From: Geothrix limicola
GTDB lineage: Bacteria; Acidobacteriota; Holophagae; Holophagales; Holophagaceae
Direction: 5' to 3'
Assembly: GCF_030268085.1 (NCBI RefSeq)
Contig: NZ_BSDE01000008.1
Location: 62,001 to 126,000 of the forward strand
DNA: 64,000 nucleotides
The translations under genes and the position numbers were made by a program. The notes beneath the pieces are model-generated. The model was not told the DNA's origin and did not search any database. It was given only the letters and a program-made list of their open reading frames with translations. Positions 1-12,370 of the stretch are shown here, one piece after another; the stretch's first letter is position 1; each line of letters begins with the position of its first letter.

Positions 1-2
1 TT

Positions 3-497
3 GACGCCATCCCCAACATTGTTGAGCAGGCGCATAGGGAATCACTCCGATCCCGAATCCGCTATGGATACCAATACTCTCTGAGGAAGCGTCTTGATGA
101 ATTGACCAAGCGGCTTTCGGAACCGCTTCGGACAATCATCCTCGGCGAAGGAGGCCAATTCCCTGGATCTTGGGTTGAGACCAGAAATTATTACACCCAT
201 TGGGACGTAGCTCTCCAACCTACTATTCTTGAACCCCCAAAAATGTACGAAGCTAGCTTCCGGATTAGCATTTTTGCTAGGGTGCTATTCCTTCAATTGA
301 TGGGAATTTCTGATGAAGTTGTAATCCAAGCGTTAGGAGGCAGTTGTCACTTAGCCCAGTACCTTATCCAGCTCAATGCTCGTGAGCACCGAAAGCGCTT
401 CCCGGATAGCACAGCTGGAGCCTTGATGTATGTTTCTGAGGCCTCCGCACCAATACAAGAAGTAGCTGATCCCGACTCGAAAGAGCCTGAAGTGTAG
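3..497 (+). CDS. HEPN-domain protein, ApeA-like C-terminal part (5' end outside window)
   Basis: The reading frame is open from the first complete codon, so the gene starts upstream of the window; a TTG at 102 is only an internal candidate. The visible 164 codons end at TAG 495-497. The motif RNYYTH is an RX4H signature of HEPN ribonuclease domains, in the context VETRNYYTHWD followed by a long helix, which resembles the C-terminal HEPN half of ApeA-type anti-phage proteins. HEPN domains of this class usually cut RNA upon infection. The gene is next to DUF3768 genes and an integrase-bearing island, which fits a defence role. The HEPN call is seen in the sequence; the ApeA assignment and defence role are inference because the N-terminal half is missing. 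Confidence 0.6.
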   Translation, partial: DAIPNIVEQAHRESLRSRIRYGYQYSLRKRLDELTKRLSEPLRTIILGEGGQFPGSWVETRNYYTHWDVALQPTILEPPKMYEASFRISIFARVLFLQLMGISDEVVIQALGGSCHLAQYLIQLNAREHRKRFPDSTAGALMYVSEASAPIQEVADPDSKEPEV

Positions 498-500
498 GCT

Positions 501-854
501 TCAATACTCGCCTGCCAGCATGCAGGTGTAGACGCGGGTTGTCATTTCATCGTTGGCGGGGTCCTCGCTGGCTTCGTTTGGCCCCCAGCTTCGGGCGTAG
601 CAGTCCACCTTGAGATAGAACGTGTCGCCATCCAGAACCACCTTGAGCATGTCGCAATCGCCCCAGGGGTTGATGCCATCATCAGTCTGGGTCGGGCACG
701 TTAACAGCCAGCGGAGAGCTTCGTATCCCCGTGGGTGATGGTGAACACCCCTCGTCACATATAGGCGGGCATACAGCGGCGAGACCGGATGCTCCTGTGA
801 GAGCAAGCGTCGCCACCGTTCATTCTGGATACCGGCGCGGGTGATCATGACCAT
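501..854 (-). CDS. DUF3768 family protein, copy 1
   Basis: A 117-aa protein of unknown function. The C-terminal half carries the DUF3768 pattern: NPWGDCD, then a WKID-like strand (YLKVDCYA), then SEDPANDEMTTRVYTCML near the end. An ATG at 890 also opens the frame, but the ATG at 854 is preferred: a GGGAGG Shine-Dalgarno lies 5 bases upstream of it, and the resulting N-terminus MVMITRAG aligns with MVQITPTG of the neighbouring paralogue. The two copies lie head to tail on the minus strand about 50 bp apart. DUF3768 proteins are frequent on plasmids and islands of proteobacteria, and no biochemical role is known to me. Confidence 0.7.
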   Translation of the reverse strand: MVMITRAGIQNERWRRLLSQEHPVSPLYARLYVTRGVHHHPRGYEALRWLLTCPTQTDDGINPWGDCDMLKVVLDGDTFYLKVDCYARSWGPNEASEDPANDEMTTRVYTCMLAGEY

Positions 855-905
855 CGGTGCCTCCCGCGACACCTTCGGCGCGGGCCGCACACTGGAACAA
901 CGGCA

Positions 906-1283
906 TCACTCCGGACTGGAGCGAGACTCGCTGTATTCTTCCGTCAGCATGCAGCTGTAGATACGGGTCGTCAGGTCGTCATCCGAGGGGTCGTCGCTTC
1001 CGCGCCTCCGTCCCTCGCCTTGGGCAAAGCAGCTCACTAACAGATCGAATGACTCCCCGGCCACGACAACCCGGAGCCAGTCGCAATCACCCTCGGCATT
1101 GACCACTGGATCCAGTTGAGCCGGGCCCGTGAGGAGTCGGGCCAGTGCTTCCTGGCCGTGTGGGTGGCTCTGCATCTCATCTGAAACGATCACCCTGGCG
1201 TAACGCTCCGGCACCATGAGGCCGCACAGGAGCCGCCTTCGCCAGTATTCGTTCCGCATGCCGGTTGGTGTGATTTGGACCAT
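906..1283 (-). CDS. DUF3768 family protein, copy 2
   Basis: A 125-aa paralogue of the downstream gene. It shares the N-terminal pattern (MVQITPTGMRNEYWRRRLL), the NAEGDCD turn, the strand FDLLVSCFA and the ending SDDPSDDDLTTRIYSCML that define DUF3768. The start ATG is at 1283 with GGAG about 8 bases upstream. It is probably co-transcribed with copy 1. Divergence between the copies is substantial, so this is an old duplication or two independent acquisitions. Function unknown; the location in accessory DNA suggests a mobile-element or defence-related role, which is inference. Confidence 0.68.
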   Translation of the reverse strand: MVQITPTGMRNEYWRRRLLCGLMVPERYARVIVSDEMQSHPHGQEALARLLTGPAQLDPVVNAEGDCDWLRVVVAGESFDLLVSCFAQGEGRRRGSDDPSDDDLTTRIYSCMLTEEYSESRSSPE

Positions 1284-2009
1284 GGTGCTGTCTCCAGATC
1301 CAGCATCCGTGAGGCTTTCACTGAGGGGTACGGCTGGATTTGAAGCAGTTGATTGCTACGTCGAGAAGCCTGCCTGAGCCGTGTCTACGCAATGAATCCG
1401 TCGAAGACGCAGATCCGAATCGACTGCTCAAAAATCCAGCATCGGATGCAGGGAAGGATCACCCGTTCAAGCACTGATGCGGCTTTTGCTCTCCCCGCCA
1501 ATTCTGGAATCAAAGGAACGAAATCCATCAGGCCAGCGTCAAGGCAGAAAATCAAACCATGCGCAACAAAAAATGTTTGACTTTTCAGTGGTTTCATGAT
1601 CAAATTATGTTCTCGTAATTGTGCCCTGCATCGAACAAGCAGCCTCGGAGCCTTTTTATTAAGTTGCCTTAAACCACCTTTCACCAGGGGTCGGACATGT
1701 GCGCTCATTTTTCGATTTTTCAAGGCTACAGGCCCATTCAGTGGTTGATTCCCGGCCATTTCATAGGTCCGGATTCGACGTAGACCCCAAAATTACCCAG
1801 CTACATAAACCGGGAATGAAAATAGGTCACCGCCCAAAGGGCTGACCCTCTCATTCAAATTCTCTCGGTTGATTCAAAGCAGGCCAAATGCTGGCCACCG
1901 GCGTTAGCTCTGCCTGCGAGTGCGGGCACCCCTTCCACCTCAACCGCGACACCCGAGTCCACCCGGCCTCCTGGGGAACCTCTGTCGCAAAACCACCAAA
2001 GGAGCCTTC
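1284..2009. other. Intergenic region without a convincing gene
   Basis: About 725 bp with lower G+C between roughly 1390 and 1830 than around it. Open frames exist on both strands (1353-1580 +, 1385-1759 -), but they lack ribosome-binding sites and recognisable motifs, so I do not call them. The stretch about 1750-1830, read on the minus strand, has repeated G/T-rich blocks (GGTGACCTATTTTCATTCC and GGGTAATTTTGGGGTC) that recall the multiple terminal repeats of IS21-type elements. It may be a decayed insertion-sequence end. Confidence 0.4.
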
Positions 2010-2414
2010 ATGGCCACCATGTCCGGCACCCAGATCCTCTCGATCAGCCGTGATGCGATCGTCACCTACACCCAGTCCGGCACCTATAAGCGGGACCAGA
2101 CCATCTACCACCCTCGATTCGGCTTCGGCACGGTCATCCGGGTTCGCTACGGAAAGGTCGAGGTCCGCTTCGGCTCCGAGAAGCGGAATCGCACACTCCT
2201 CTGCGGAATGATGACCCACGATCAGCGAAACGAGGCTAACGGAATCTCTGCAGAAGAAACTCCCCGCATGAAGTCTTCTAAGCGCCAAGCGGTCCTGGTG
2301 GAGGGCGCTCTGCTGCAGGAGGGATCTCGCAAGATCGCGGCTGATGACATCCCCTTCTCGATGGAGTCCTTCATGAACCAGCTCCTGGACTGCTCCTTCG
2401 ACGAAGCCAGCTAG
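2010..2414 (+). CDS. Small PKFG-type (tudor/SH3-like) domain protein
   Basis: A 134-aa protein with start ATG at 2010 and AAAGGAG 5 bases upstream; the longer frame from 1920 is disfavoured. Residues about 20-60 contain YHPRFGFGTV followed by VRYGKVEVRFGSEKR. This is the short beta-barrel motif (hPKFGxGxV...KVxVxFxxxxR) found at the C-terminus of UvrD/PcrA helicases and in many stand-alone small proteins, where it is thought to bind protein or nucleic acid. The C-terminus is polar and has no second domain. It is the first plus-strand gene of the island and is followed by a strong terminator, so it is probably transcribed alone. Exact role unknown. Confidence 0.5.
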   Translation: MATMSGTQILSISRDAIVTYTQSGTYKRDQTIYHPRFGFGTVIRVRYGKVEVRFGSEKRNRTLLCGMMTHDQRNEANGISAEETPRMKSSKRQAVLVEGALLQEGSRKIAADDIPFSMESFMNQLLDCSFDEAS

Positions 2415-2442
2415 GATGTCACGGACCTAGGCTGAACCATGG

Positions 2443-2477
2443 TGGCGGAGGGACTCACCATCCCTCCGCCATTTTTT
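2443..2477 (+). terminator. Rho-independent terminator
   Basis: A perfect 11-bp inverted repeat (TGGCGGAGGGA / TCCCTCCGCCA) with a 7-base loop is followed by six T. It lies 28 bases after the stop of the PKFG-domain gene and ends its transcript. Confidence 0.9.
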
Positions 2478-2485
2478 CATTTATC

Positions 2486-2564
2486 GAAACCTCGGAAACA
2501 AGGGAAACGTCGGTCATGGGTCCATCAGACAATGGAAAGACCGTTTCCATGTTTCCCTCGTTTC
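2486..2564. repeat. Phased GAAAC / GTTTC inverted array
   Basis: Three GAAAC pentamers start at 2486, 2495 and 2504 (exact 9-bp period). Three inverted copies, GTTTC, start at 2543, 2551 and 2560. The two half-arrays face each other across about 34 bp. The array lies between a terminator and the 3' end of the transposase-like gene. It could be a protein-binding array or a decayed element end; function unknown. Confidence 0.5.
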
Positions 2565-2634
2565 CCAGAAATCCCTTAATTTCAAAAATGACTCAGTCCT
2601 TGAGGGAACCAGGCGGGCGGGCATCCACACCCGA

Positions 2635-3558
2635 TTAGGCCTCACCCCGCACCACGTCCTGGAATGTTTTTGGCTCCCCGTGCAGAGCCCGTTGAACCAG
2701 ATCGTCGAACACTTCTTTCGGAGTGGACTTCCGGCATCGGTGATTGAAGCGGAACACGAATTCATCGAGATAGGCGCCGAGGTGTTTCTCGCTCATTTCC
2801 CCCCAATGTGTGCCGACCTGCCAGACCCGTAGCTCCCCGAGAACACGATTGACGCTTAGCAGTCCCAATTCCGTGGCCGTTCGATGTCGATACTCCGCCT
2901 CCCCCAGCCAGTCGAACTCGCTCCCAGGGCTGGACCAGATCTCTTCGCGCATAACACCCCCAAGGGCCTCCATGAGGCACCGCTGCAAGGTCTCCGGTTC
3001 ACGGTCGCGAATTTGTCGGAGGCAGGCCCATTCGGTAGACCCATCTGCTCTTTCCTTAACCACCACCAGCACTTGGACAGCCTTCTTCCCCTGGCGCCCG
3101 AACTGGTTCAACTCCACCACCTCAAGGTTTTCAATACTGACCTCGACCCGACCATATGTTGGCGGCCCCGGAATTTGCTGCATCACGCCTCGGATCTTAT
3201 GGAGCAGGAGCCAAGCCGTCTTGTAGCTCACAAGGTTCCGTTCGTCTTCATCCGGATCCGGCAGTTTCGCCAGGCCCGACGCGCTGATGCCGGATGGTGT
3301 TTCTGACATGACCCATAGGACTGAGAACCAAGTAACCAGGGAAACACGGCCTCCAGCGAGAGCCGTCCCGCTCAATTCGGAAGCCTGCTTCTGGCAGTCC
3401 TGACAACGGAACAATCCCCGTGCGTTGAGCCGAGCCCTATTGCTTCCACAACCTGGGCAACGGAACCCTCCCGGCCAACGAAGCTCTCGAATCGAGGCCC
3501 GGCACTGGTCCTCAGTGGAGAACCGTTTGAGGAACCAGGAGGGAAGAGGAGATGCCAT
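2635..3558 (-). CDS. IS1595-family transposase homologue lacking the DDE motif
   Basis: A 307-aa protein. Residues 34-55 form a zinc ribbon (CPGC...CQDC) like the N-terminal domain of IS1595/ISXO2 transposases, and the next helix-rich part (TWFSVLWVMSETPSGISA, KTAWLLLHKIR) follows the family closely. The C-terminal part MSEKHLGAYLDEFVFRFNHR is also typical. The expected first catalytic motif VEVDE is VEVSIE (Ser142 for Asp), and the expected TDG...Y motif is not recognisable (EIWSSPGSEFDW). It therefore looks inactive as a transposase although the frame is intact. Start ATG 3558 has GGAG 9 bases upstream; frames extending to 3573 or 3645 are possible. It is divergent from the primase-helicase gene. 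It may be a domesticated DNA-binding protein. Confidence 0.72.
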   Translation of the reverse strand: MASPLPSWFLKRFSTEDQCRASIRELRWPGGFRCPGCGSNRARLNARGLFRCQDCQKQASELSGTALAGGRVSLVTWFSVLWVMSETPSGISASGLAKLPDPDEDERNLVSYKTAWLLLHKIRGVMQQIPGPPTYGRVEVSIENLEVVELNQFGRQGKKAVQVLVVVKERADGSTEWACLRQIRDREPETLQRCLMEALGGVMREEIWSSPGSEFDWLGEAEYRHRTATELGLLSVNRVLGELRVWQVGTHWGEMSEKHLGAYLDEFVFRFNHRCRKSTPKEVFDDLVQRALHGEPKTFQDVVRGEA

Positions 3559-3659
3559 CCCTCGATTCTCCATATCCGAGAGCGAAGTAAACAGGGAGAT
3601 CCTCGCATCGCCTCTTAAGGGTTTTGGCGCAACAACGCGCCCCACCTCATGGAGGCCTA

Positions 3660-6299
3660 ATGGCCCAGTTCACCACCCCCCTCGATACCCCGGAGAACAC
3701 TCCGGTCTCTTCCCCCCTCATCCGCTGCAGCCGCTTCACCAACTGCCGCGACAACACGCCCAAGAACCTGAACGCGAGCTGGGAGGAGTTGACTTCCCCG
3801 GCCTTCTTGGGCCGTGCCTACGAGGTCCAGGGCGCCACGAAGGAGGAGGCCAAGCTGAACCTCTACGCCTTCAGCCCTGCCGCCTACCCTCCTGGTGGGA
3901 TCCGTGGGGACCGCGACATCGAAAGCATCCAGATCTTCATGCTGGACTTCGATAACAAGGCCGAACAGCCCACGGGAGAATTCAAGGAAAACGGGGAACC
4001 CGTGTTCCGCAAAGTCCCCATCGAGGGCGCCCCGACCCTGCAGGAAGTGCATGAGCACCTCACACGGCTTGGAGTCACGCACTTCGGCTACCACAGCTAT
4101 TCCAGCACGCCGGAGTGCGAGCGATTTCGCATCATGCTTCTAATGGATCGCCCCTCCAATGGCAAGAATTGGAAGCTGACCTCCGAGTGGCTGCTGTCCC
4201 AGCTCATGCTGGATCGGTGGCGGGCCATGGGCTGCCTGGACCTGGGCGCCATGCACCGTGCGGCCTGCCTCTACTTCCCGGCCGGAAACTGGGCTCAGGA
4301 ACCCGAAGCCAAGGACCGCATCCAGTTCGTGTCCTATAACGGAGCCCCCCTGGCGCTCCCGACCGAAGAAGATCTGGCCGACATGACGATCGCCCCCGTC
4401 ACCGTCCACCCCCTGCTTCAGGAATGGCAGGCGAAGCGTGCTGCGACTCGTGTCAGCACCATGTCCAGCGATCCCGACAAGTGGCAGGAAGCCTACAACG
4501 TGGACTTCAAGACCCTGGATATGGTGGGACTTCTGCGTGAGATGGGCTCCACAGTTCAGGAGCCCGTCCCCTACGGCAGCGGCACCAAGGCCCGCTGCAC
4601 CTGCCCCTTCGCGCACGAGCACTCCAATCCGATGGATGCCGAGGGTGCCGCGGTCTTCATGGAACCCGGCTCCTGGCCCGGCTTCACCTGCCTTCATGAC
4701 ACCCACAAGGACGTTCACCTTCGCGAGGTTTGCCACGAAGCAGGCGAAGAGATACTCCTCCGGCACGCCCAGCCCTTTCGCAGCACCACTGGGCGACTGG
4801 TTTCAACCCGGCGCGAGGAGGCCAAGCATGCCGTGGATTCCGAGGGCGCTGATGCCATCGAGGCAGAAGTGATGAATCAGGGCGAGGGGGATCCGGACGA
4901 GGCCAAGCGCAACGCGGCGATCCAGCGCTGGAAGGAACTGCTCGAAGAAGACGGAATCCCCACCGAAGAAATCCGCTTCACCAGCAAGGGCGGCATCGCC
5001 AAGTCCCCCTTGAACCTCGAAATCATCCTGACGAATGGCCACGCCTACCGGGATTCCATCCGCTGGAATGAGCTGAAAATGATCACGGAACTGCAGGTCG
5101 CCGATTATGCCCACCTGGATATCGACGATCTGGACAACGGCGTCACGGGCCTCCAGAACCATCTGGATCGCCGTTGGGGCGTGTCGTGGCCTCAATCGAC
5201 CATCATCCTGGCCCTCAATCTGGCCGCGTCCTCGGCGAAGTACCACCCCGTGAAGGTCTGGCTTGCAGCCCTGCCTGAATGGGACGGCGTGGACCGCATG
5301 CCCCTGGTTCGCGATGAAATCCTGGGCGCCACCCAGACCCTCGACTACGACAAATACGCCGCCCTCTATGCCGAGTACCTCAAGTGCACCCTCATCGGCG
5401 CCGTGCGGCGCGTCATGGAACCCGGCTGCAAGATGGACACGGTCACGATCCTCTACGGCGATCAGGCTGCGCGGAAGTCGACCTTCTGGAAGACGCTGTG
5501 CGCCGACCCCGGCTGGTTCAACGATTCCAAGATCCACATCGACAGCGCCGAAGGGCAGAAGGTGCTGCAGGGCTCGTGGATCCACGAGCTGAGCGAGATC
5601 GACGACATGACCTCCGTGAAATCGGCCGAGGCCATCAAGGCCTTCGTGTCCTCGGCCACGGACAAGTTCCGCCCCTCCTACGGCCGGATTCCCCGTGATT
5701 TCCCCCGCCGCTGCATCATGGTCGGCTCCACGAACAAGGAGCAGGTCCTGAACGATCCCACCGGCTCCCGCCGTTTCTGGGTGATTCCCACCGCCACGAA
5801 GATCAACATCGAGCTGCTGCAGGAGAACCTGGCTCAGCTTTGGGCCCAGGCTCTCCACAGCTACAACCAGGGGGAGCCGAACTATCTCACCGACGACATG
5901 GAAGCCCTCCGGGTCGGCCAGAGCCACCGCCACCAGATGGAAAGCCGTTACGCCGACCTGATGCCCAAGATCACCCAGTTCTACCAGGAGCACGCTGGGC
6001 CAAACGGCATCACCCTCAGCGCGATCTTTGGGTTCCTCGAAGGGAAGGTCGAGGACGGTAAGGGCTTCGCCAAGCCAACGCTCGCTGAACGCCGGGATCT
6101 CGCAGCCTGCCTCCGCAGCAACGGCTGGACCGTCAAGCAGGGCTACTTCAACGGCGTCAGCGCCAAGTGTTTCATGGCGCCCGAGCAGTTCCCGCTCACG
6201 GTTCCCAAGAAGGCACCTGCCGCCACAGGATTCGAATTCCCCGGCGTGGACCTGAGCGGGGATCCGTTTAAGGTTCCGGAGCAGGGCCCGCTCTTTTGA
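3660..6299 (+). CDS. Primase-zinc-helicase protein, VapE/VirE superfamily
   Basis: An 879-aa replication protein of phage or satellite type. The start ATG at 3660 follows GGAGG. The N-terminal third resembles an archaeo-eukaryotic-type primase region, with an acidic strand (FMLDFDNK) and the phrase HSYSSTPECERFRIML. The middle carries a Cys/His-rich module (CTCPFAHEH...FTCLHDTH), probably a zinc-binding domain. The C-terminal part is a VapE-type SF3-like ATPase: TILYGDQAARKST at about 597-608, then LQGSWIHELSEIDD, IKAFVSSATDKFRPSYGR and STNKEQVLNDPTGSRRFW. Walker A reads GDQAARKST, with Arg605 where Gly normally precedes Lys. A terminator follows at 6361. Such proteins start and unwind replication of integrative elements; whether this one is active is not known. 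Confidence 0.8.
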   Translation: MAQFTTPLDTPENTPVSSPLIRCSRFTNCRDNTPKNLNASWEELTSPAFLGRAYEVQGATKEEAKLNLYAFSPAAYPPGGIRGDRDIESIQIFMLDFDNKAEQPTGEFKENGEPVFRKVPIEGAPTLQEVHEHLTRLGVTHFGYHSYSSTPECERFRIMLLMDRPSNGKNWKLTSEWLLSQLMLDRWRAMGCLDLGAMHRAACLYFPAGNWAQEPEAKDRIQFVSYNGAPLALPTEEDLADMTIAPVTVHPLLQEWQAKRAATRVSTMSSDPDKWQEAYNVDFKTLDMVGLLREMGSTVQEPVPYGSGTKARCTCPFAHEHSNPMDAEGAAVFMEPGSWPGFTCLHDTHKDVHLREVCHEAGEEILLRHAQPFRSTTGRLVSTRREEAKHAVDSEGADAIEAEVMNQGEGDPDEAKRNAAIQRWKELLEEDGIPTEEIRFTSKGGIAKSPLNLEIILTNGHAYRDSIRWNELKMITELQVADYAHLDIDDLDNGVTGLQNHLDRRWGVSWPQSTIILALNLAASSAKYHPVKVWLAALPEWDGVDRMPLVRDEILGATQTLDYDKYAALYAEYLKCTLIGAVRRVMEPGCKMDTVTILYGDQAARKSTFWKTLCADPGWFNDSKIHIDSAEGQKVLQGSWIHELSEIDDMTSVKSAEAIKAFVSSATDKFRPSYGRIPRDFPRRCIMVGSTNKEQVLNDPTGSRRFWVIPTATKINIELLQENLAQLWAQALHSYNQGEPNYLTDDMEALRVGQSHRHQMESRYADLMPKITQFYQEHAGPNGITLSAIFGFLEGKVEDGKGFAKPTLAERRDLAACLRSNGWTVKQGYFNGVSAKCFMAPEQFPLTVPKKAPAATGFEFPGVDLSGDPFKVPEQGPLF

Positions 6300-6360
6300 T
6301 CGATCCGGACCGGCACGAAGCAAGCCGATGGTGTGACCGTCAGGACCGTATGACCGAACC

Positions 6361-6388
6361 AAAGGGGACCTCACCGGGTCCCCTTTTT
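6361..6388 (+). terminator. Rho-independent terminator of the primase-helicase gene
   Basis: A 10-bp stem AAAGGGGACC / GGTCCCCTTT with a 6-base loop is followed by further T residues, about 60 bp after the stop codon. Confidence 0.85.
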
Positions 6389-6453
6389 CATGTCTGCTCA
6401 GTCTGAGACCCCATGGAAACTCAGGCCACAACCCAGGCCAGGCATTGGCGGGG

Positions 6454-6476
6454 TCGATGCCGGGAATCGATGCCGG
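6454..6476. repeat. Direct decamer repeat TCGATGCCGG
   Basis: The 10-mer occurs at 6454-6463 and again at 6467-6476, with a 13-bp period. Short iterated sites of this kind occur near origins of plasmids and satellites. Seen directly; function inferred only. Confidence 0.4.
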
Positions 6477-6546
6477 TGGAGGCAACAGCCATCAAGTGTC
6501 CATGTGGGCCCGGGGCCATGAATGGAGGGGAAGCAGGGAATGGAAC

Positions 6547-6580
6547 ATAGGGGGGTGTAGAGATACTAGTGGGACTATTC
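6547..6580. repeat. 34-bp direct repeat, copy 1
   Basis: The repeat starts ATAGGGGGGTGTAGAG and ends TACTAGTGGGACTATTC. It matches 6667-6700 with a single mismatch (G at 6562, A at 6682). It contains the palindrome ACTAGT, and ATAG/CTAT lie near the ends. Confidence 0.85.
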
Positions 6581-6666
6581 ACCACGGCGGTCCTGCGGAC
6601 CTGATGTGCGGGATGCATGCAGGATCGGGATGAGGGCAGTGGAAGGAGTAAATGGGGGAAGAGGGA

Positions 6667-6700
6667 TAGGGGGGTGTAGAAATACTAGTGGGACTATTCC
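6667..6700. repeat. 34-bp direct repeat, copy 2
   Basis: The second copy lies exactly 120 bp after the first and 20 bp upstream of the ATG at 6721, so it probably overlaps the promoter or leader of the orphan gene. An operator or initiator-binding site is the simplest reading. Confidence 0.85.
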
Positions 6701-6720
6701 CCTCCCCGACAGGACCCAAC

Positions 6721-8292
6721 ATGGCTTCACTTCCCCTGAGGATTGGGGAGTCAATCATCCCTCTCTCGATCGCGATCCCGCGCAGGTGCTCGCTCCAGGG
6801 TGATGAACCGGTCCGCCCCGTGCGGTGGGTCGATACCCGGAGCCCCGTCCTACAGAAGCGGTTCCGAGACCTTGCCTACTTCATCTCGGAGCAGGCCGGG
6901 TACGACACCGCGACCACCGTACCCTCTCGGGTGAAAGGGAAACCCGGTGCTGTGCGTCGTCTCCCCGAGGGATACAAACCCCTTCAGATCCTGGTTCAGC
7001 CGGAGTGCGGGCTCTACGACGAGAACGGGACATTTCACGGGAACGAGGACGCCCTCTGCTTCTACGACATGGACCGGCTCCCCCTGGAGCGGCTGTTTGA
7101 AGCCTATGAACGGCTCCGGGTGCTCCACAATCAGGGACGTGCCTTCGTCTGGATGAATGCCGTCCACTGCCCCAAGGCTGCGTTCTGGGTGCGCCTACGA
7201 GGTTCTGGTGAATCCCACCAGGCGATGCTCCTCCAGATCCACCAGGAGGTGTTCCAGGGGGATCCGGCATGTGCCCCAGCCCTCGGCCCCTCCGACATGT
7301 GGAAGACCTTTGTCCATTCCGCAGAAGTGCTCGAAGGGATGCGAGTCTTTTTCGCCGAGGCCTATCGCCGGCATGTGCAGGCCATTCACGATGAGGCACG
7401 TAGACGCGAGCAGGCATGGCATGAGCAACGCCGAGTGGAGCTTCACGAGGCACTGGAGCGGGAAATCGAACAGCGCGTCCCCACCGAGGCCCAAGCTTTC
7501 ATTGAGCCCCCTTCCCAACCGGATTCCTGGATCAGCGATCTCCTGGGCGGTTGGCAGCCTGGAGATCCCTTCCCCGATGCCTTTAACGCCTACCTGAACC
7601 GGGAATTCGCGCCTCGGCTTGAGCACGGGATCCGGCTTCCGCTCTATGAGGAGCCGATTCCGAGGGCGTTGTTTGGACGGAAGGCTTCGCGGCTTCAGGA
7701 GCTGATCCTCCGGTTTGCCCTCTCGATGCCGGAACGGTTGCTCCACGAGGGCGTGGGAATTCCGAGTCCCCTCATCCAGAAGCTCGCGCACCAGTACTAC
7801 CCCGAGCTGTTCAATCTCAGGATTGATGTGAGCGGGAACCTCGATGCCTCAGGCGCCTCCAAGGCCATAGGTCAGTTGGTCGCACGGGGCATCCTGGAGG
7901 TCGCGGATCATGCTTTTCGTCCCGGCGGCTTCTCGAAGCTGTATCGAGCGATTCACCCGGAACTCATCCAGTTGGCCCTGGTGCGGTCCAGGAGCTTCGG
8001 TAGGAAGCGGTTTCAGGAACGCACCGTGGACGAGGTGGACCGGCGCTGGCAGGAGCTTACTGGTCAGGCTCTGGCTGACACGGCCATTGATGGTGTCAGG
8101 GATCAGATCATCTACCGGCTCACCAACCTCTGCCCGAGTTTCGAGATATTCGAGGAAGCAGCGCTCCGGATCCCCGGAATGCGGGAACGGCCGGAGCGGA
8201 TGAGGTTCCTTCCGAGTCAGTGGGCTGCCCACATGGATCGGGACCAGAGGAAGGCCCGGGCCGGTGAGGTAGACCTTCCCGGTGGTGGGTGA
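6721..8292 (+). CDS. Orphan 523-aa protein of the integrative element
   Basis: I do not recognise a family. The start ATG at 6721 follows AGGA with 6-base spacing; the frame is open upstream to 6688. The N-terminal 200 residues are mixed alpha/beta (FYDMDRLPLERLFEAYERLR, FVWMNAVHCPKAAFWVRLRG). Residues about 222-260 are a charged helix, likely coiled coil (ARRREQAWHEQRRVELHEAL). Residues about 366-415 (DASGASKAIGQLVARGILEV, then FRPGGFSKLYR) have the alternation of a winged-helix DNA-binding domain. There is no signal peptide or membrane segment. It sits between the repeat-rich spacer and the integrase, so a replication or control function for the element is plausible. That is inference. Confidence 0.6.
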   Translation: MASLPLRIGESIIPLSIAIPRRCSLQGDEPVRPVRWVDTRSPVLQKRFRDLAYFISEQAGYDTATTVPSRVKGKPGAVRRLPEGYKPLQILVQPECGLYDENGTFHGNEDALCFYDMDRLPLERLFEAYERLRVLHNQGRAFVWMNAVHCPKAAFWVRLRGSGESHQAMLLQIHQEVFQGDPACAPALGPSDMWKTFVHSAEVLEGMRVFFAEAYRRHVQAIHDEARRREQAWHEQRRVELHEALEREIEQRVPTEAQAFIEPPSQPDSWISDLLGGWQPGDPFPDAFNAYLNREFAPRLEHGIRLPLYEEPIPRALFGRKASRLQELILRFALSMPERLLHEGVGIPSPLIQKLAHQYYPELFNLRIDVSGNLDASGASKAIGQLVARGILEVADHAFRPGGFSKLYRAIHPELIQLALVRSRSFGRKRFQERTVDEVDRRWQELTGQALADTAIDGVRDQIIYRLTNLCPSFEIFEEAALRIPGMRERPERMRFLPSQWAAHMDRDQRKARAGEVDLPGGG

Positions 8293-8525
8293 CCTTCAGG
8301 GCTGAAAACCAAAAAGACGTGTGAATCCACTCTCGAAAACCACGTTTTTACGGCCTGCCATTGCGCGGGCGCTACCCCTTTGGCCGAGACAAGCGTGAAA
8401 CGCCGGAAGTGGCCTCCCAGAGGCACGCGTGGAACCTCGGCGACATCGAGTCGATGAAGCCTGCGGGCCGCACGAAGATCCGCGCATGAAACGTAGATTC
8501 GCTGTTAACGACCCGAGGTGATTTC

Positions 8526-9728
8526 TTGGGTCCCATTACTTTCCTTACTCCAACCGCAGACCAGGTCAACGGAAATCAAGTCCCAATGGTCCTTCGGCAC
8601 ACCTGGACCATCCAGGTTCCTGTGGCGGCCCCGGTGTCCAAACCTCCGATCCAGGGGAAGGTGCGCCCCAGGAGGCGGCGCGTGGAGGACGGCAAGATTC
8701 ATTTCGTTCAGAACCTGGCGAAGCATCCTGAATCTGGCGTCTTCCTCTACCGATTCTCCTATCAGGGCCGAATCTATACGGGCTCGACCGGTTGCTACCG
8801 CCTAGTTGAAGCCCGGGACTACATCAACGCGATGAAGGGTCGGCTCTCCCTGGAAGGCGTCGGCATCAAGAAGCCGAAGGCGATCACCCTTCGGCAGTGC
8901 TTCAACGCCTGGATGGAGGAGGTCGCTCCCCAGCGCAGCCACTCCTATGTCAGGACGCTGAAGGGGCTCATCACCCTTCATGCCCTGCCCCTAATCGGCG
9001 GGTTCTTGGTCAGCCAACTGGACTCGACCGCGTTGAACGGCGTCCTGAACCGCTACCTCGAAACCCACACGAAGAGTGGGGCCAACACCTTCGCGCTGCA
9101 TCTCGGGGCCCTGCTTGGGTTCGCGGTTGAAAAGGACTGGATCAAGGAGAAGCCCACCATCTCGATAATCCCAGTTCAGCGGAAGCACCGTCCCGTCGTC
9201 CCGAAGGACCTCCTGGACCAGTTCCTGGAGGCCGTGGATGCCCAGGGCAGCCTCCATGCGAGCTTTCTTGTTCGTGCCCAGATCCTCATGGGGATGCGCA
9301 ACCACGAGGCCCGTCTGATGCGATGGTCTGGGCTTCGGCTCGACCAAAAAGTGTTCATCCCGGACAAAACGAAGAACGGTGATGCCCCGGTGATGCCCAT
9401 TCCAGAGGTGATGCTGGATTGGTTTGAGAAGTTGAAGCCCCAGGGGGGCGGAACCTTTGGTCTCATCTGCCCTGGGGAGAAGGAAGGCAAGCCTCGCGGC
9501 CACGACTTCACCATCCGGTACATCCGAAGAGCGGCTGAAGCAGTTGGGCTGCCCCCTGACCTAACCGATCACCGCCTCCGTGCGAGCTTCGCCAACATTC
9601 TCAACAAGCGGGGAGTGCCACTGCCGACGATCCAGAAGCTCATGCGGCACTCGAAAGTCGAGACCACGATGATCTACATCGAGACCCGTGAAGAGGAGAT
9701 GCGCGAAGCCATCAATTTGGTGGGTTGA
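8526..9728 (+). CDS. Tyrosine recombinase / phage integrase
   Basis: A 400-aa site-specific recombinase. All catalytic residues are present: Arg258 (GMRNHEAR), Lys283 (KTKNGD), His349-x-x-Arg352 (DHRLRAS), His375 (LMRHSKVETT) and the nucleophile Tyr384 (MIYIE). The N-terminus holds an Arg/Lys-rich segment and an arm-binding-type region (FRFSYQG-like, YRFSYQGRIYTG). A SAM-like core-binding domain follows at about 120-215. The start is taken as TTG 8526 because GAGGTGA lies 5 bases upstream; ATG 8586 is the alternative. It would catalyse integration and excision of the island. No tRNA or att duplication was found nearby, and no excisionase was recognised in the 233 bp upstream. Confidence 0.93.
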   Translation: MGPITFLTPTADQVNGNQVPMVLRHTWTIQVPVAAPVSKPPIQGKVRPRRRRVEDGKIHFVQNLAKHPESGVFLYRFSYQGRIYTGSTGCYRLVEARDYINAMKGRLSLEGVGIKKPKAITLRQCFNAWMEEVAPQRSHSYVRTLKGLITLHALPLIGGFLVSQLDSTALNGVLNRYLETHTKSGANTFALHLGALLGFAVEKDWIKEKPTISIIPVQRKHRPVVPKDLLDQFLEAVDAQGSLHASFLVRAQILMGMRNHEARLMRWSGLRLDQKVFIPDKTKNGDAPVMPIPEVMLDWFEKLKPQGGGTFGLICPGEKEGKPRGHDFTIRYIRRAAEAVGLPPDLTDHRLRASFANILNKRGVPLPTIQKLMRHSKVETTMIYIETREEEMREAINLVG

Positions 9729-9779
9729 TGCTCTGTCCTAGTGAAAACGGGATTCACAATTATTTCGCTGAAGGAGCAC

Positions 9780-11276
9780 CTAGTCTTGCCGCTGTTCGTG
9801 AGGAAGGAACTCCTCAAAAGAAATCAATACTCTTTGAAGTGCCTCTGGATATGCCTGGGCCCAAATATTTGCGAAAGCAGCTGCCACCGTAGCTTCGGGG
9901 AGGAGACCAAGCTTCTCACCCACTTGAGCGAAGAGTAGATGAGCATCCATATTTGTTGTCCTCACCGAATTACATATTTGTTTGACCCGCTCAGCATTTT
10001 CGAAGCGCTGAAGAAGGGCCACTGCAAGCTTTCCTCCTATCGAATCCCATGCGGTCATTACCTCATCAAATACAAATGCCTCAGGCGATTGCCCAGGTAG
10101 TCGATAAATTGCATCGTCCTTCGATTCAGATTGTTCCGAGTCACCATCAATGAGACAAATAGATGGCACCAGAGAAGATGGATCCTTTCGATGGTAACGA
10201 TTCATGGCTACCGCAGTACCATCACCTTCCATACCGTAAACTTGAATGTGATCAACTGCGAGGTTATTAGCCTGGCGGAGGATAGCTTCAACCCAAAGTT
10301 TCGCGAATGGATCTTCAACAAAGATAACCAAGGCGGCATCAATCTGACCTGTGATTGCACGAAGTGAGTTGATATCCAGCTTTCCCTGGAAGATTCTGTC
10401 CTGAGTAGCCACCCAAATTGCTTTTGATGGAAGCGGCTTTAATGCATCGTTAGAGTGTGTCGTAAAAATCGTTTGAAGCTTTTTTCGTTCTGCAGCATCG
10501 ATGAGATATTCCACCATTCGAACTGTTGCAACGGGGTGAAGGCCGTTCTCGATCTCTTCAATCAATACCAAGGCTTGATCCTCAACGAGTTCGATTTCAG
10601 CAACCATTCGAATAATGCTCGATTCACCTGCCCCAAAATGGAATTCGGAATAGCCCTTGCCATCCTTTGTTCGCCCAGCCAACAGCGTGACTCTGCCTTT
10701 GGGGTCGACTCGCAAACTACTAAATCCTGAAATATTCTTACCAAGAATTCGAGATACAGCCTTTTGGACTGGTTCCGTTAATTCTTGAACGTGTGCCTCT
10801 GGCACTTCGAAAGAGTTGGATGCACAACGACCCAGTTCAGGGCGTTCATTAGCAGGAACTGTCCTTGAAACACCAAATACAAGCACTCTTCGATCGGGCG
10901 CTTCACGATTCCAGCGCGAGTTTCGGAAGCTGGTTGTTCTGCGAACTGCATCCTTCTTGTTCAGTTCTCGGTCTATCAACTCATATTCAATTGACCAATC
11001 CTGCATTGTTTCGTCGTATTTACCACTTTTCGCAAAAAAACGTTTGGGAGATATAGACTTATATGCACACCCAGCCGCGCCTAGAATGGTCGTTTTACCA
11101 CCTCCATTCGGGCCAATCAACGCAGTAACCGGAAAGTCAAACAAAACTGGCTCGTTATGAAAACCTCTAACATGTTTGAGGCTTAATTTCGCAAGATATT
11201 GGCCATAGTTACGATTAGCCGCTTTTTCTAAAAGTGCGTTAATAGTGCTATCACGTATTTCACTTTTAAAAACCAT
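9780..11276 (-). CDS. OLD-like ATPase with TOPRIM-type C-terminal region
   Basis: A 498-aa protein. Walker A is GPNGGGKTT (about 55-63), followed by an ABC-signature-like HFGAGESSI and Walker B LVLIEEIENGLHP, then the switch IFTTHSND. This is the AAA15/RecF-like ATPase of the OLD family. The C-terminal third has FVEDPFAKLWVEAIL and ICLIDGDSEQ, which fit the Glu and DxD motifs of a TOPRIM nuclease. OLD-type proteins include phage-defence nucleases such as GajA and the ATPases of PARIS. The gene is clearly AT-richer than its neighbours, so it was probably acquired recently. It runs convergent to the integrase with no partner gene on its strand nearby. Defence is inferred, not shown. Confidence 0.8.
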   Translation of the reverse strand: MVFKSEIRDSTINALLEKAANRNYGQYLAKLSLKHVRGFHNEPVLFDFPVTALIGPNGGGKTTILGAAGCAYKSISPKRFFAKSGKYDETMQDWSIEYELIDRELNKKDAVRRTTSFRNSRWNREAPDRRVLVFGVSRTVPANERPELGRCASNSFEVPEAHVQELTEPVQKAVSRILGKNISGFSSLRVDPKGRVTLLAGRTKDGKGYSEFHFGAGESSIIRMVAEIELVEDQALVLIEEIENGLHPVATVRMVEYLIDAAERKKLQTIFTTHSNDALKPLPSKAIWVATQDRIFQGKLDINSLRAITGQIDAALVIFVEDPFAKLWVEAILRQANNLAVDHIQVYGMEGDGTAVAMNRYHRKDPSSLVPSICLIDGDSEQSESKDDAIYRLPGQSPEAFVFDEVMTAWDSIGGKLAVALLQRFENAERVKQICNSVRTTNMDAHLLFAQVGEKLGLLPEATVAAAFANIWAQAYPEALQRVLISFEEFLPHEQRQD

Positions 11277-11381
11277 ATGTTTTCCTCTCCTTGTTTATGA
11301 CTTAAAGTTTTGAATTTCGTTTTCTGAATTGTTGACTAGGCAGGGTCGGCAAGCCAACACAAATTTCTAAGTGTCAGCCGG

Positions 11382-11699
11382 TTACTCAACGGGACTCAGG
11401 GACTCTTGGTGTACACCCTCGAAGTAGTGGCCCGCTTCGCAGTGGGTGGAGTCCTGTCGCAGCTTATGCTCGCAATGGTCTGGAGTCCCGTGAGCCTGCC
11501 TCTTGAAGTGCAGCCGCACAGCCCCTTTGCAGTGAACGCAACGAGCCTTTGGCCTGCCGGGAATATCGGACACATTTACCTCGGTCCACCGGTACACCTT
11601 TGTCTCACCCTCAATGAATTTCTTTTTGATCTCGCACCGGTACATCTGGTCATGAGACTTGGGTTGTTTCTTCGCTTTAGTAGTCGGTCCTGAACTCAT
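11382..11699 (-). CDS. Small Cys/His-rich protein, probable zinc binder
   Basis: A 105-aa protein with start ATG 11699 and AAGGAG just upstream; the frame is open to 11780, but only the inner start has a ribosome site. The C-terminal half carries RCVHCKGAVRLH, then DHCEHK and HCEAGHYFEG. This Cys/His pattern recurs in an uncharacterised family often seen in accessory DNA of proteobacteria (recognised from its RCxHCxGAVRxH and RQDSxxCxxGHYF phrases). The N-terminus is Lys-rich. Role unknown; binding of zinc and possibly nucleic acid is inferred from composition. It marks the right part of the island. Confidence 0.6.
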   Translation of the reverse strand: MSSGPTTKAKKQPKSHDQMYRCEIKKKFIEGETKVYRWTEVNVSDIPGRPKARCVHCKGAVRLHFKRQAHGTPDHCEHKLRQDSTHCEAGHYFEGVHQESLSPVE

Positions 11700-11974
11700 G
11701 CCTGCTCCTTGAGGCAAGGCTAGCAAGCGGATGAATGCTTTGGGACGACATGTGCATTGATCACTCAATTTGAGAATCAATCTCGGTTTTTAGACGACCG
11801 TGGGCACAATTCTCATCAAGGCAAATCGCGTCAATGGCGGGGTCCACAACCGTCTGGGAAAGGTCAACAGCCACCTCTCCCGGGGCACCTTAGACAGATT
11901 CAGTTACAGGCTCACCTGCTGACACATGGCCCGCCCGTGACGCTCCAAGTCCTGAACACCCTCAAAATCGAAGC

Positions 11975-12370
11975 ATGACGTTCACCCTCCGCCACCGAGC
12001 CCAGGGCATCCTCCGCGAGGCGGGCTGGGAGATCCCGCCGCCACCCTGCATCTGGTCGCCACGCATGGTTCGGTGCGCAGGGCTGTTCGTGGTCGAGAAA
12101 GATGGGCGGGGGAAGTGGCATCCGGAGATCCGCCTTTCCATCCCGCTGCTGCGGCGCCGGGATTGGCCCTGGCCGCAGCAGGTGTGCGGGATGAACTGCC
12201 ATGATCCGCTCCAGGTGCAGCAGCGCATCCTGGAGCACGAGCTCATCCACTACAAGCTCTGGATGGATCGCGAAAGGGACTGGGGGCACAGCGAGCGGTT
12301 CCGGCAGCTGGCTTGGGAGGTGTTCGGGCATCAGGCCATCACTCACGGCATCGGGTCGGAAGAGGAATGA
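11975..12370 (+). CDS. SprT-like zinc metallopeptidase
   Basis: A 131-aa protein with the zinc protease motif HELIH (His88-Glu89-His92) and a likely third ligand His105 in WGHSERFR, the arrangement of SprT/Spartan-type domains. These are small, mostly cytosolic metallopeptidase-like proteins; in eukaryotes relatives cut DNA-protein crosslinks, and the bacterial role is poorly known. There is no signal peptide. The ATG at 11975 has no clear Shine-Dalgarno sequence. It is the first gene with host-like base composition to the right of the island, 80 bp before the HAD gene, and possibly co-transcribed with it. Confidence 0.7.
   Translation: MTFTLRHRAQGILREAGWEIPPPPCIWSPRMVRCAGLFVVEKDGRGKWHPEIRLSIPLLRRRDWPWPQQVCGMNCHDPLQVQQRILEHELIHYKLWMDRERDWGHSERFRQLAWEVFGHQAITHGIGSEEE

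Follow-up and report, generated by a model that had tools for sequence, protein, structure and literature searches.

A probable 27.5-kb integrative genomic island inside a SprT-like gene of Geothrix limicola

We analysed a stretch of 64,000 nucleotides of the Geothrix limicola genome (contig NZ_BSDE01000008.1, here C8, positions 62,001 to 126,000; the window), whose left part holds a VapE-type helicase/primase gene, a tyrosine integrase gene and the other features collected in Table 1. These features lie in an integrated mobile element of about 27.5 kb. It extends from near C8:46763, which is 15.2 kb outside the window to the left, to near window position 12258, and it sits inside a SprT-like gene that is followed at the right by a gene of the 5'-nucleotidase family. 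A first-pass annotation of the window had placed a satellite-like integrative element without structural genes at 2010-9728. The genes that it named were real (a small protein with the motif HPRFGFG, a transposase homologue, VapE, a gap with repeats, an orphan protein and the integrase), and their families were confirmed where present. The integrative nature was borne out: both junctions were identified, one relative has an empty site, the element bears a gene copy of its own, and related elements sit at two sites. The extent was too small: 2010-9728 is under a third of the element, because the element measures about 27.5 kb and continues for 2.5 kb beyond 9728. Borders at 2010 and 9728 were rejected by both junctions and by a relative in genome G164 (genomes of the genus are given as G and a number), which is collinear further left. 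The genes, which had been expected to move as a unit, do lie inside one unit, but that unit is larger.

Table 1. Features of the island and its right junction in the window, with the evidence for each.
Feature	Position	Strand	Evidence
Element part within the window	1..12258		Junctions and empty site
ApeA-type HEPN protein, 506 aa, C-terminal part in window	1..497	+	ApeA_NTD1 5.5e-26; HEPN_Apea 5.6e-25; PDC-S58 1.2e-43
DUF3768 protein	501..890	-	PF12599 6.8e-11; relatives in G142, G164, UBA692
Second DUF3768-like protein	906..1283	-	PF12599 0.0057, below cut-off; ~47% identical to the first
Small HPRFGFG protein	2010..2414	+	No Pfam, PHROGs or NCBIfam family; one AbiEi_3_N match below cut-off (0.12)
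IS1595-type transposase homologue	2635..3645	-	Zn_ribbon_IS1595 1.1e-12; DDE_Tnp_IS1595 2.8e-8; NF033547 60.2 bits, below cut-off 75
VapE-type helicase/primase protein	3660..6299	+	PF05272 1.2e-65; phrog_256 1e-74
Two 37-nt direct repeats, 119 bp apart	6547..6702		Starts 6547 and 6666; 95% alike
Orphan protein	6799..8292	+	No family in Pfam, PHROGs, PADLOC or NCBIfam
Tyrosine integrase	8526..9728	+	PF00589 4e-18; phrog_1 2.8e-42
AAA ATPase scoring as HEC-04, candidate defence cargo	9780..11276	-	PDLC04149 3.4e-222; NCBIfam models below cut-off
Small protein	11382..11717	-	No family in Pfam or PHROGs; G175 and G181 have relatives in this position
Right-end motif	11893..11926	+	Similar stretch near the left end, same orientation, C8:46830
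Element-borne SprT front, codons 1-95	11975..12258	+	Comparison of both ends
Exact 26-bp core common to the left junction, over HExxH	12233..12258	+	Alignment
Host remainder of SprT, in frame	12259..12370	+	Sequence

Borders and integration site

The 47 genomes of the genus were searched with the SprT and nucleotidase genes, and a partial SprT copy was found on the same contig at C8:46466-46765. The two SprT fronts of this genome are 92% identical over 300 bp. At the left junction the host SprT gene is cut at codon 95, the left copy ending after 98 codons; at the right junction an element-borne front of 95 codons runs in frame into the host remainder, and the whole frame reads 131 codons and matches SprT-like (PF10263, 1.9e-8). 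Both fronts finish in the exact 26-bp run GAGCACGAGCTCATCCACTACAAGCT, which spans HExxH, and diverge from there on. In the alignment, corresponding positions in the two cores are separated by 27,496 bp. The G+C content of the element, 0.551, compares with 0.613 for the 4.8 kb to its left and 0.666 on its right side.

Left of the island lie an F420-dependent oxidoreductase-like gene, a DinB-family gene and two further genes, which we take to be ArsR-like and AHSA1-like. In G151, which provides the empty site, the same four genes stand before an intact SprT gene and the nucleotidase gene. Among 30 distinct SprT-region loci obtained with tblastn, some of which share a genome, this order was present only in two loci of G151; in G133 and G106 a truncated SprT comes after part of the left gene set.

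The integrase gene adjoins the right end of the island, and the integrases of relatives are located next to the same end. Within the 31 kb examined, the sequence GTTACAGGC has two copies, one close to either end; they point the same way and are embedded in longer stretches of similarity. A recombination core at the right-end motif was rejected: all 12 copies of the motif that were found lie beside the integrase end, the SprT duplication ends at codon 95, and the empty SprT loci of G158, G053 and G151 show similarity starting near the start codon. At the level of sequence, the comparison shows a split and rebuilt SprT gene, a shared core, similar ends and one empty site.

Relatives at SprT and mfd

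SprT copies cut at this place were found in at least 5 of the 47 genomes (G000, G106, G133, G142 and G155); among the matches listed, G087 and G181 had shorter SprT fragments with other ends. About 130-310 bp past the left junction are similar in G106, G133, G142 and G155, and 119 bp of this stretch also occur at the left end of an element in G158 that is inserted at mfd. The right-end motif, with up to 3 mismatches allowed, was detected at 12 places in 11 of the 47 genomes and nowhere in a reversed control; it lies next to SprT in 8 places and next to an mfd tail in 4. The mfd-type relatives sit at the 3' end of mfd. A second copy of the final 368 bp of mfd, 94.8% identical, lies beyond the left end in G158, and two mfd-tail copies were listed in G162 (the second being partial), G163, G164, G174 and G176. 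The integrases of SprT elements are 83% (G142) and 81% (G181) identical to that of the window and those of mfd elements 74% (G158) and 71% (G164). A search of genome contigs with a profile of the integrase alignment gave 7 loci, one of them (Gracilibacillus) a weak match of 36%. As read by eye, the SprT core and the mfd core both contain the short sequence CTACAAGC, which is oriented one way in SprT elements and the other way in mfd elements.

The G164 element is collinear with window positions 501-6461 at 78% identity and with the integrase, and genes further left also align; it lacks the orphan gene and the ATPase gene, and its right-end motif follows about 90 bp after the integrase. The G142 element has two DUF3768-type genes, the small HPRFGFG protein, VapE (52% identity) and the integrase. 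Holophagaceae UBA692 has the same gene order, with VapE at 55% and the integrase at 66% identity, and then a TIR-domain protein (L105:11518-12831), which occupies the slot held here by the HEC-04 gene. A core set of the DUF3768 pair, the HPRFGFG protein, VapE and the integrase is present in 3 of the 47 genus genomes and in UBA692. DUF3768 was matched in the same 3 genomes, that is, in the three core-bearing elements, where the second copies rest on BLAST. VapE was matched in 10 of the 47 genomes, 9 of them above the cut-off, and VapE alone is therefore not diagnostic. Of the gene set in the first-pass annotation, the HPRFGFG protein, VapE and the integrase belong to this core; its transposase homologue and orphan, like the right-hand ATPase, come and go among relatives.

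Three further observations concern single relatives. SprT fragments lie at the ends of the G142 contigs C27, C34 and C12 (L045, L046 and L061), which suggests that the SprT site of G142 may have held more than one element in a row. In G175, a metagenome-assembled genome, two integrase pieces (L013:3-515 and L055:3099-3377) are 92% and 72% identical to the integrase of the window and may belong either to two elements or to a mosaic gene. G087 has a diverged SprT fragment (L019:4699-4815; codons 57-95, 56% identity) that ends at the same codon and is possibly an old scar.

Genes of the island

Pfam was run on 23 proteins of the element (9 + 10 + 4) and PHROGs on 19 of these, the Rhs, reverse transcriptase, TonB_C and full-length ApeA proteins being outside the latter scan; most open reading frames below about 90 aa were in neither. 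In agreement with the first-pass annotation, no capsid, terminase, portal, relaxase or conjugation family was recognised among the scanned proteins. One helix-turn-helix (HTH) protein matched Phage_scaffold at 15.3 bits (cut-off 35) along a coiled-coil stretch, which was taken as a chance match.

The transposase homologue had been described as inactive, and it does have other residues at both aspartate positions that its relatives keep (VDDAY and TDGW), as does its counterpart in G164. We take these aspartates to be catalytic. Between the two elements, the only pair compared, nonsynonymous divergence (dN) is 0.116 and synonymous divergence (dS) 0.632 over 316 codons; for VapE the values are 0.09 and 0.52. 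Although both aspartates are gone, the protein looks constrained. We do not favour a passing insertion sequence, given the collinear position in G164 and a dN of 0.12 against a dS of 0.63, a ratio similar to that of VapE. No copy of the homologue was found in UBA692 or in the element of G142.

In a sample of 149 genomes of the phylum, the orphan protein was matched in one, the genome that it comes from, and it had no match in viral contigs, phages or plasmids. A single-sequence structural model had a mean predicted local distance difference test (pLDDT) of 41.4 and a predicted template modelling score (pTM) of 0.25. The 37-nt repeat pattern likewise occurs in one of the 47 genus genomes, that of the window. 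The orphan is absent from the otherwise collinear G164 element, and window positions 6462-8299, which hold the orphan gene and the repeats, fill exactly the stretch missing in the G164 alignment, as if both had been inserted together as one unit. Our guess is that the orphan might have a role in replication and that the repeats might be its binding sites.

Left of the window the element encodes a 1749-aa Rhs-repeat protein, an HTH protein, a DUF3892 protein and an XRE-type regulator, further proteins of SHOCT, GYF_2, TonB_C and ApeA type, and a reverse transcriptase that scores as Drt8 (2.4e-157), with NCBIfam models below their cut-offs. The ApeA-type protein matched no NCBIfam family. By family, the Drt8, ApeA and HEC-04 genes are candidate anti-phage genes. 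The mfd element of G158 (L087:4152-12857) carries a NucC-type protein (2.8e-88) and an Rhs-repeat protein and has no VapE.

Integration, alternatives and known systems

We consider it highly probable that the locus is an integrative genomic island of 27.5 kb that inserted inside SprT, rebuilt the front of the gene and carries candidate anti-phage genes. The tyrosine integrase would recombine at the core within the SprT-like gene. The sequence shows that the host's first 95 codons were left behind at the left and that the element supplies a front and new upstream DNA, so that an intact SprT frame remains. The repeats near both ends are putative binding sites of the integrase or of a directionality factor. 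HTH proteins may control excision, VapE may replicate the excised form, and both the HPRFGFG protein and the dead homologue of the transposase may bind DNA or a polymerase and in this way aid replication, excision or regulation. The island would persist through the protection given by Drt8, ApeA and HEC-04 and through the Rhs protein.

Several points weigh against this interpretation. G151 is the sole exact empty site because the left flank differs in most other genomes, and at mfd the 640-bp flank past the displaced tail in G158 had no match beside mfd elsewhere. The G158 element lacks VapE, and VapE is therefore not needed by the whole family. No protein of the element was recognised as an excisionase of a known family. 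Relatives in G106, G159, G163 and G169 are decayed, integrases included, and present-day mobility is therefore unproved.

The decayed integrases would also fit a largely immobile relic, or a composite of successive insertions into a hotspot rather than a single mobile unit, as would the SprT fragments seen within or at the ends of several contigs of G142 and the lack of the orphan and ATPase genes in G164. However, in the genome studied here the left end and the end repeat occur once per end with no internal SprT fragment seen, and dN is well below dS against G164 for VapE, the integrase and the transposase homologue. We regard such an origin as unlikely.

A phage satellite resembling a phage-inducible chromosomal island (PICI) or its minimalist form (PICMI), which a helper phage induces, VapE replicates and helper particles carry, is still less probable, and the satellite label of the first-pass annotation was not upheld. 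The integrase, HTH regulators and VapE-type protein without structural genes would suit a satellite, VapE proteins occur in 602 phage records (below 60% identity), and satellites without known packaging-redirection genes exist, namely PICMIs (PMC10803314). However, at 27.5 kb the element exceeds the 7-20 kb given for satellites (PMC13376191), and neither terS nor a capsid-remodelling, packaging or AlpA family was found in the Pfam and PHROGs scans. The host genome has no match to PF04860 (portal) or PF03354 (TerL_ATPase), which leaves room for other phage types and virulent helpers; the integrase and the transposase homologue had no relative in the viral contigs scanned, and the G158 relative does without VapE. 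Finally, a mobilizable element carried by a conjugative plasmid or an integrative and conjugative element (ICE), as dusA elements are, is very improbable: the gene front is rebuilt in the same way (PMC8409611), but Pfam assigned none of the 23 proteins to a relaxase or conjugation family, no search for oriT being made.

The literature searched gave no description of this island, in keeping with the earlier statement that no described family was recognised. An ICE in a tRNA gene near mfd (PMC4908127) and a table naming sprT beside plasticity regions (PMC3091717) have been published. Restoration of a gene front at integration has also been published, for dusA elements and for the ICE SXT at prfC, which bring a new N-terminus and upstream DNA (PMC8409611). 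Like these, the island is inserted in the front part of a coding gene whose frame is kept; in contrast, about 35 dusA codons are replaced there and 95 of 131 SprT codons here, no mobilization gene was found here, and other relatives of the island use the mfd tail. Helper-embedded PICIs, which form one integrase clade, also use coding-gene sites and have changed site repeatedly (PMC10111431), but their sites are late genes of prophages and they are satellites, whereas the island and its relatives use housekeeping genes of the host and have no known helper. PICIs and PICMIs share with the island integrase, regulator and replication genes without structural genes, and PICMI115 has defence cargo (PMC6092414, PMC10803314); the island differs in its 27.5 kb, in that no AlpA, packaging or interference gene was found, and in that no induction is known. 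New are the pair of sites in SprT and mfd, the extent of the replacement, a recombination core that spans HExxH and the gene core of DUF3768, HPRFGFG and VapE proteins.

Defence islands with exchangeable cargo are a general concept. The island resembles them in its Drt8-, ApeA- and HEC-04-type genes, with a NucC-type gene in G158 and a TIR gene in UBA692, and differs in having a core of its own (the DUF3768 pair, the HPRFGFG protein, VapE and the integrase) and the sites in SprT and mfd.

A bolder and rather doubtful proposal is that the integrase of this family shifts to new coding genes by swapping a captured host-gene fragment of 284-368 bp (SprT front or mfd tail) beside otherwise similar ends, so that the attachment site would be a swappable cassette, and that a catalytically dead IS1595 transposase was recruited as a DNA-binding helper. 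Elements at SprT and mfd have common ends, related integrases and unrelated target genes, and form a natural series on target change by an integrase. The replaced part of SprT is long, 95 of 131 codons including HExxH, and the element may therefore alter the host protein as well as its expression. The conserved core could be used as a bait for more defence cargo in Acidobacteriota.

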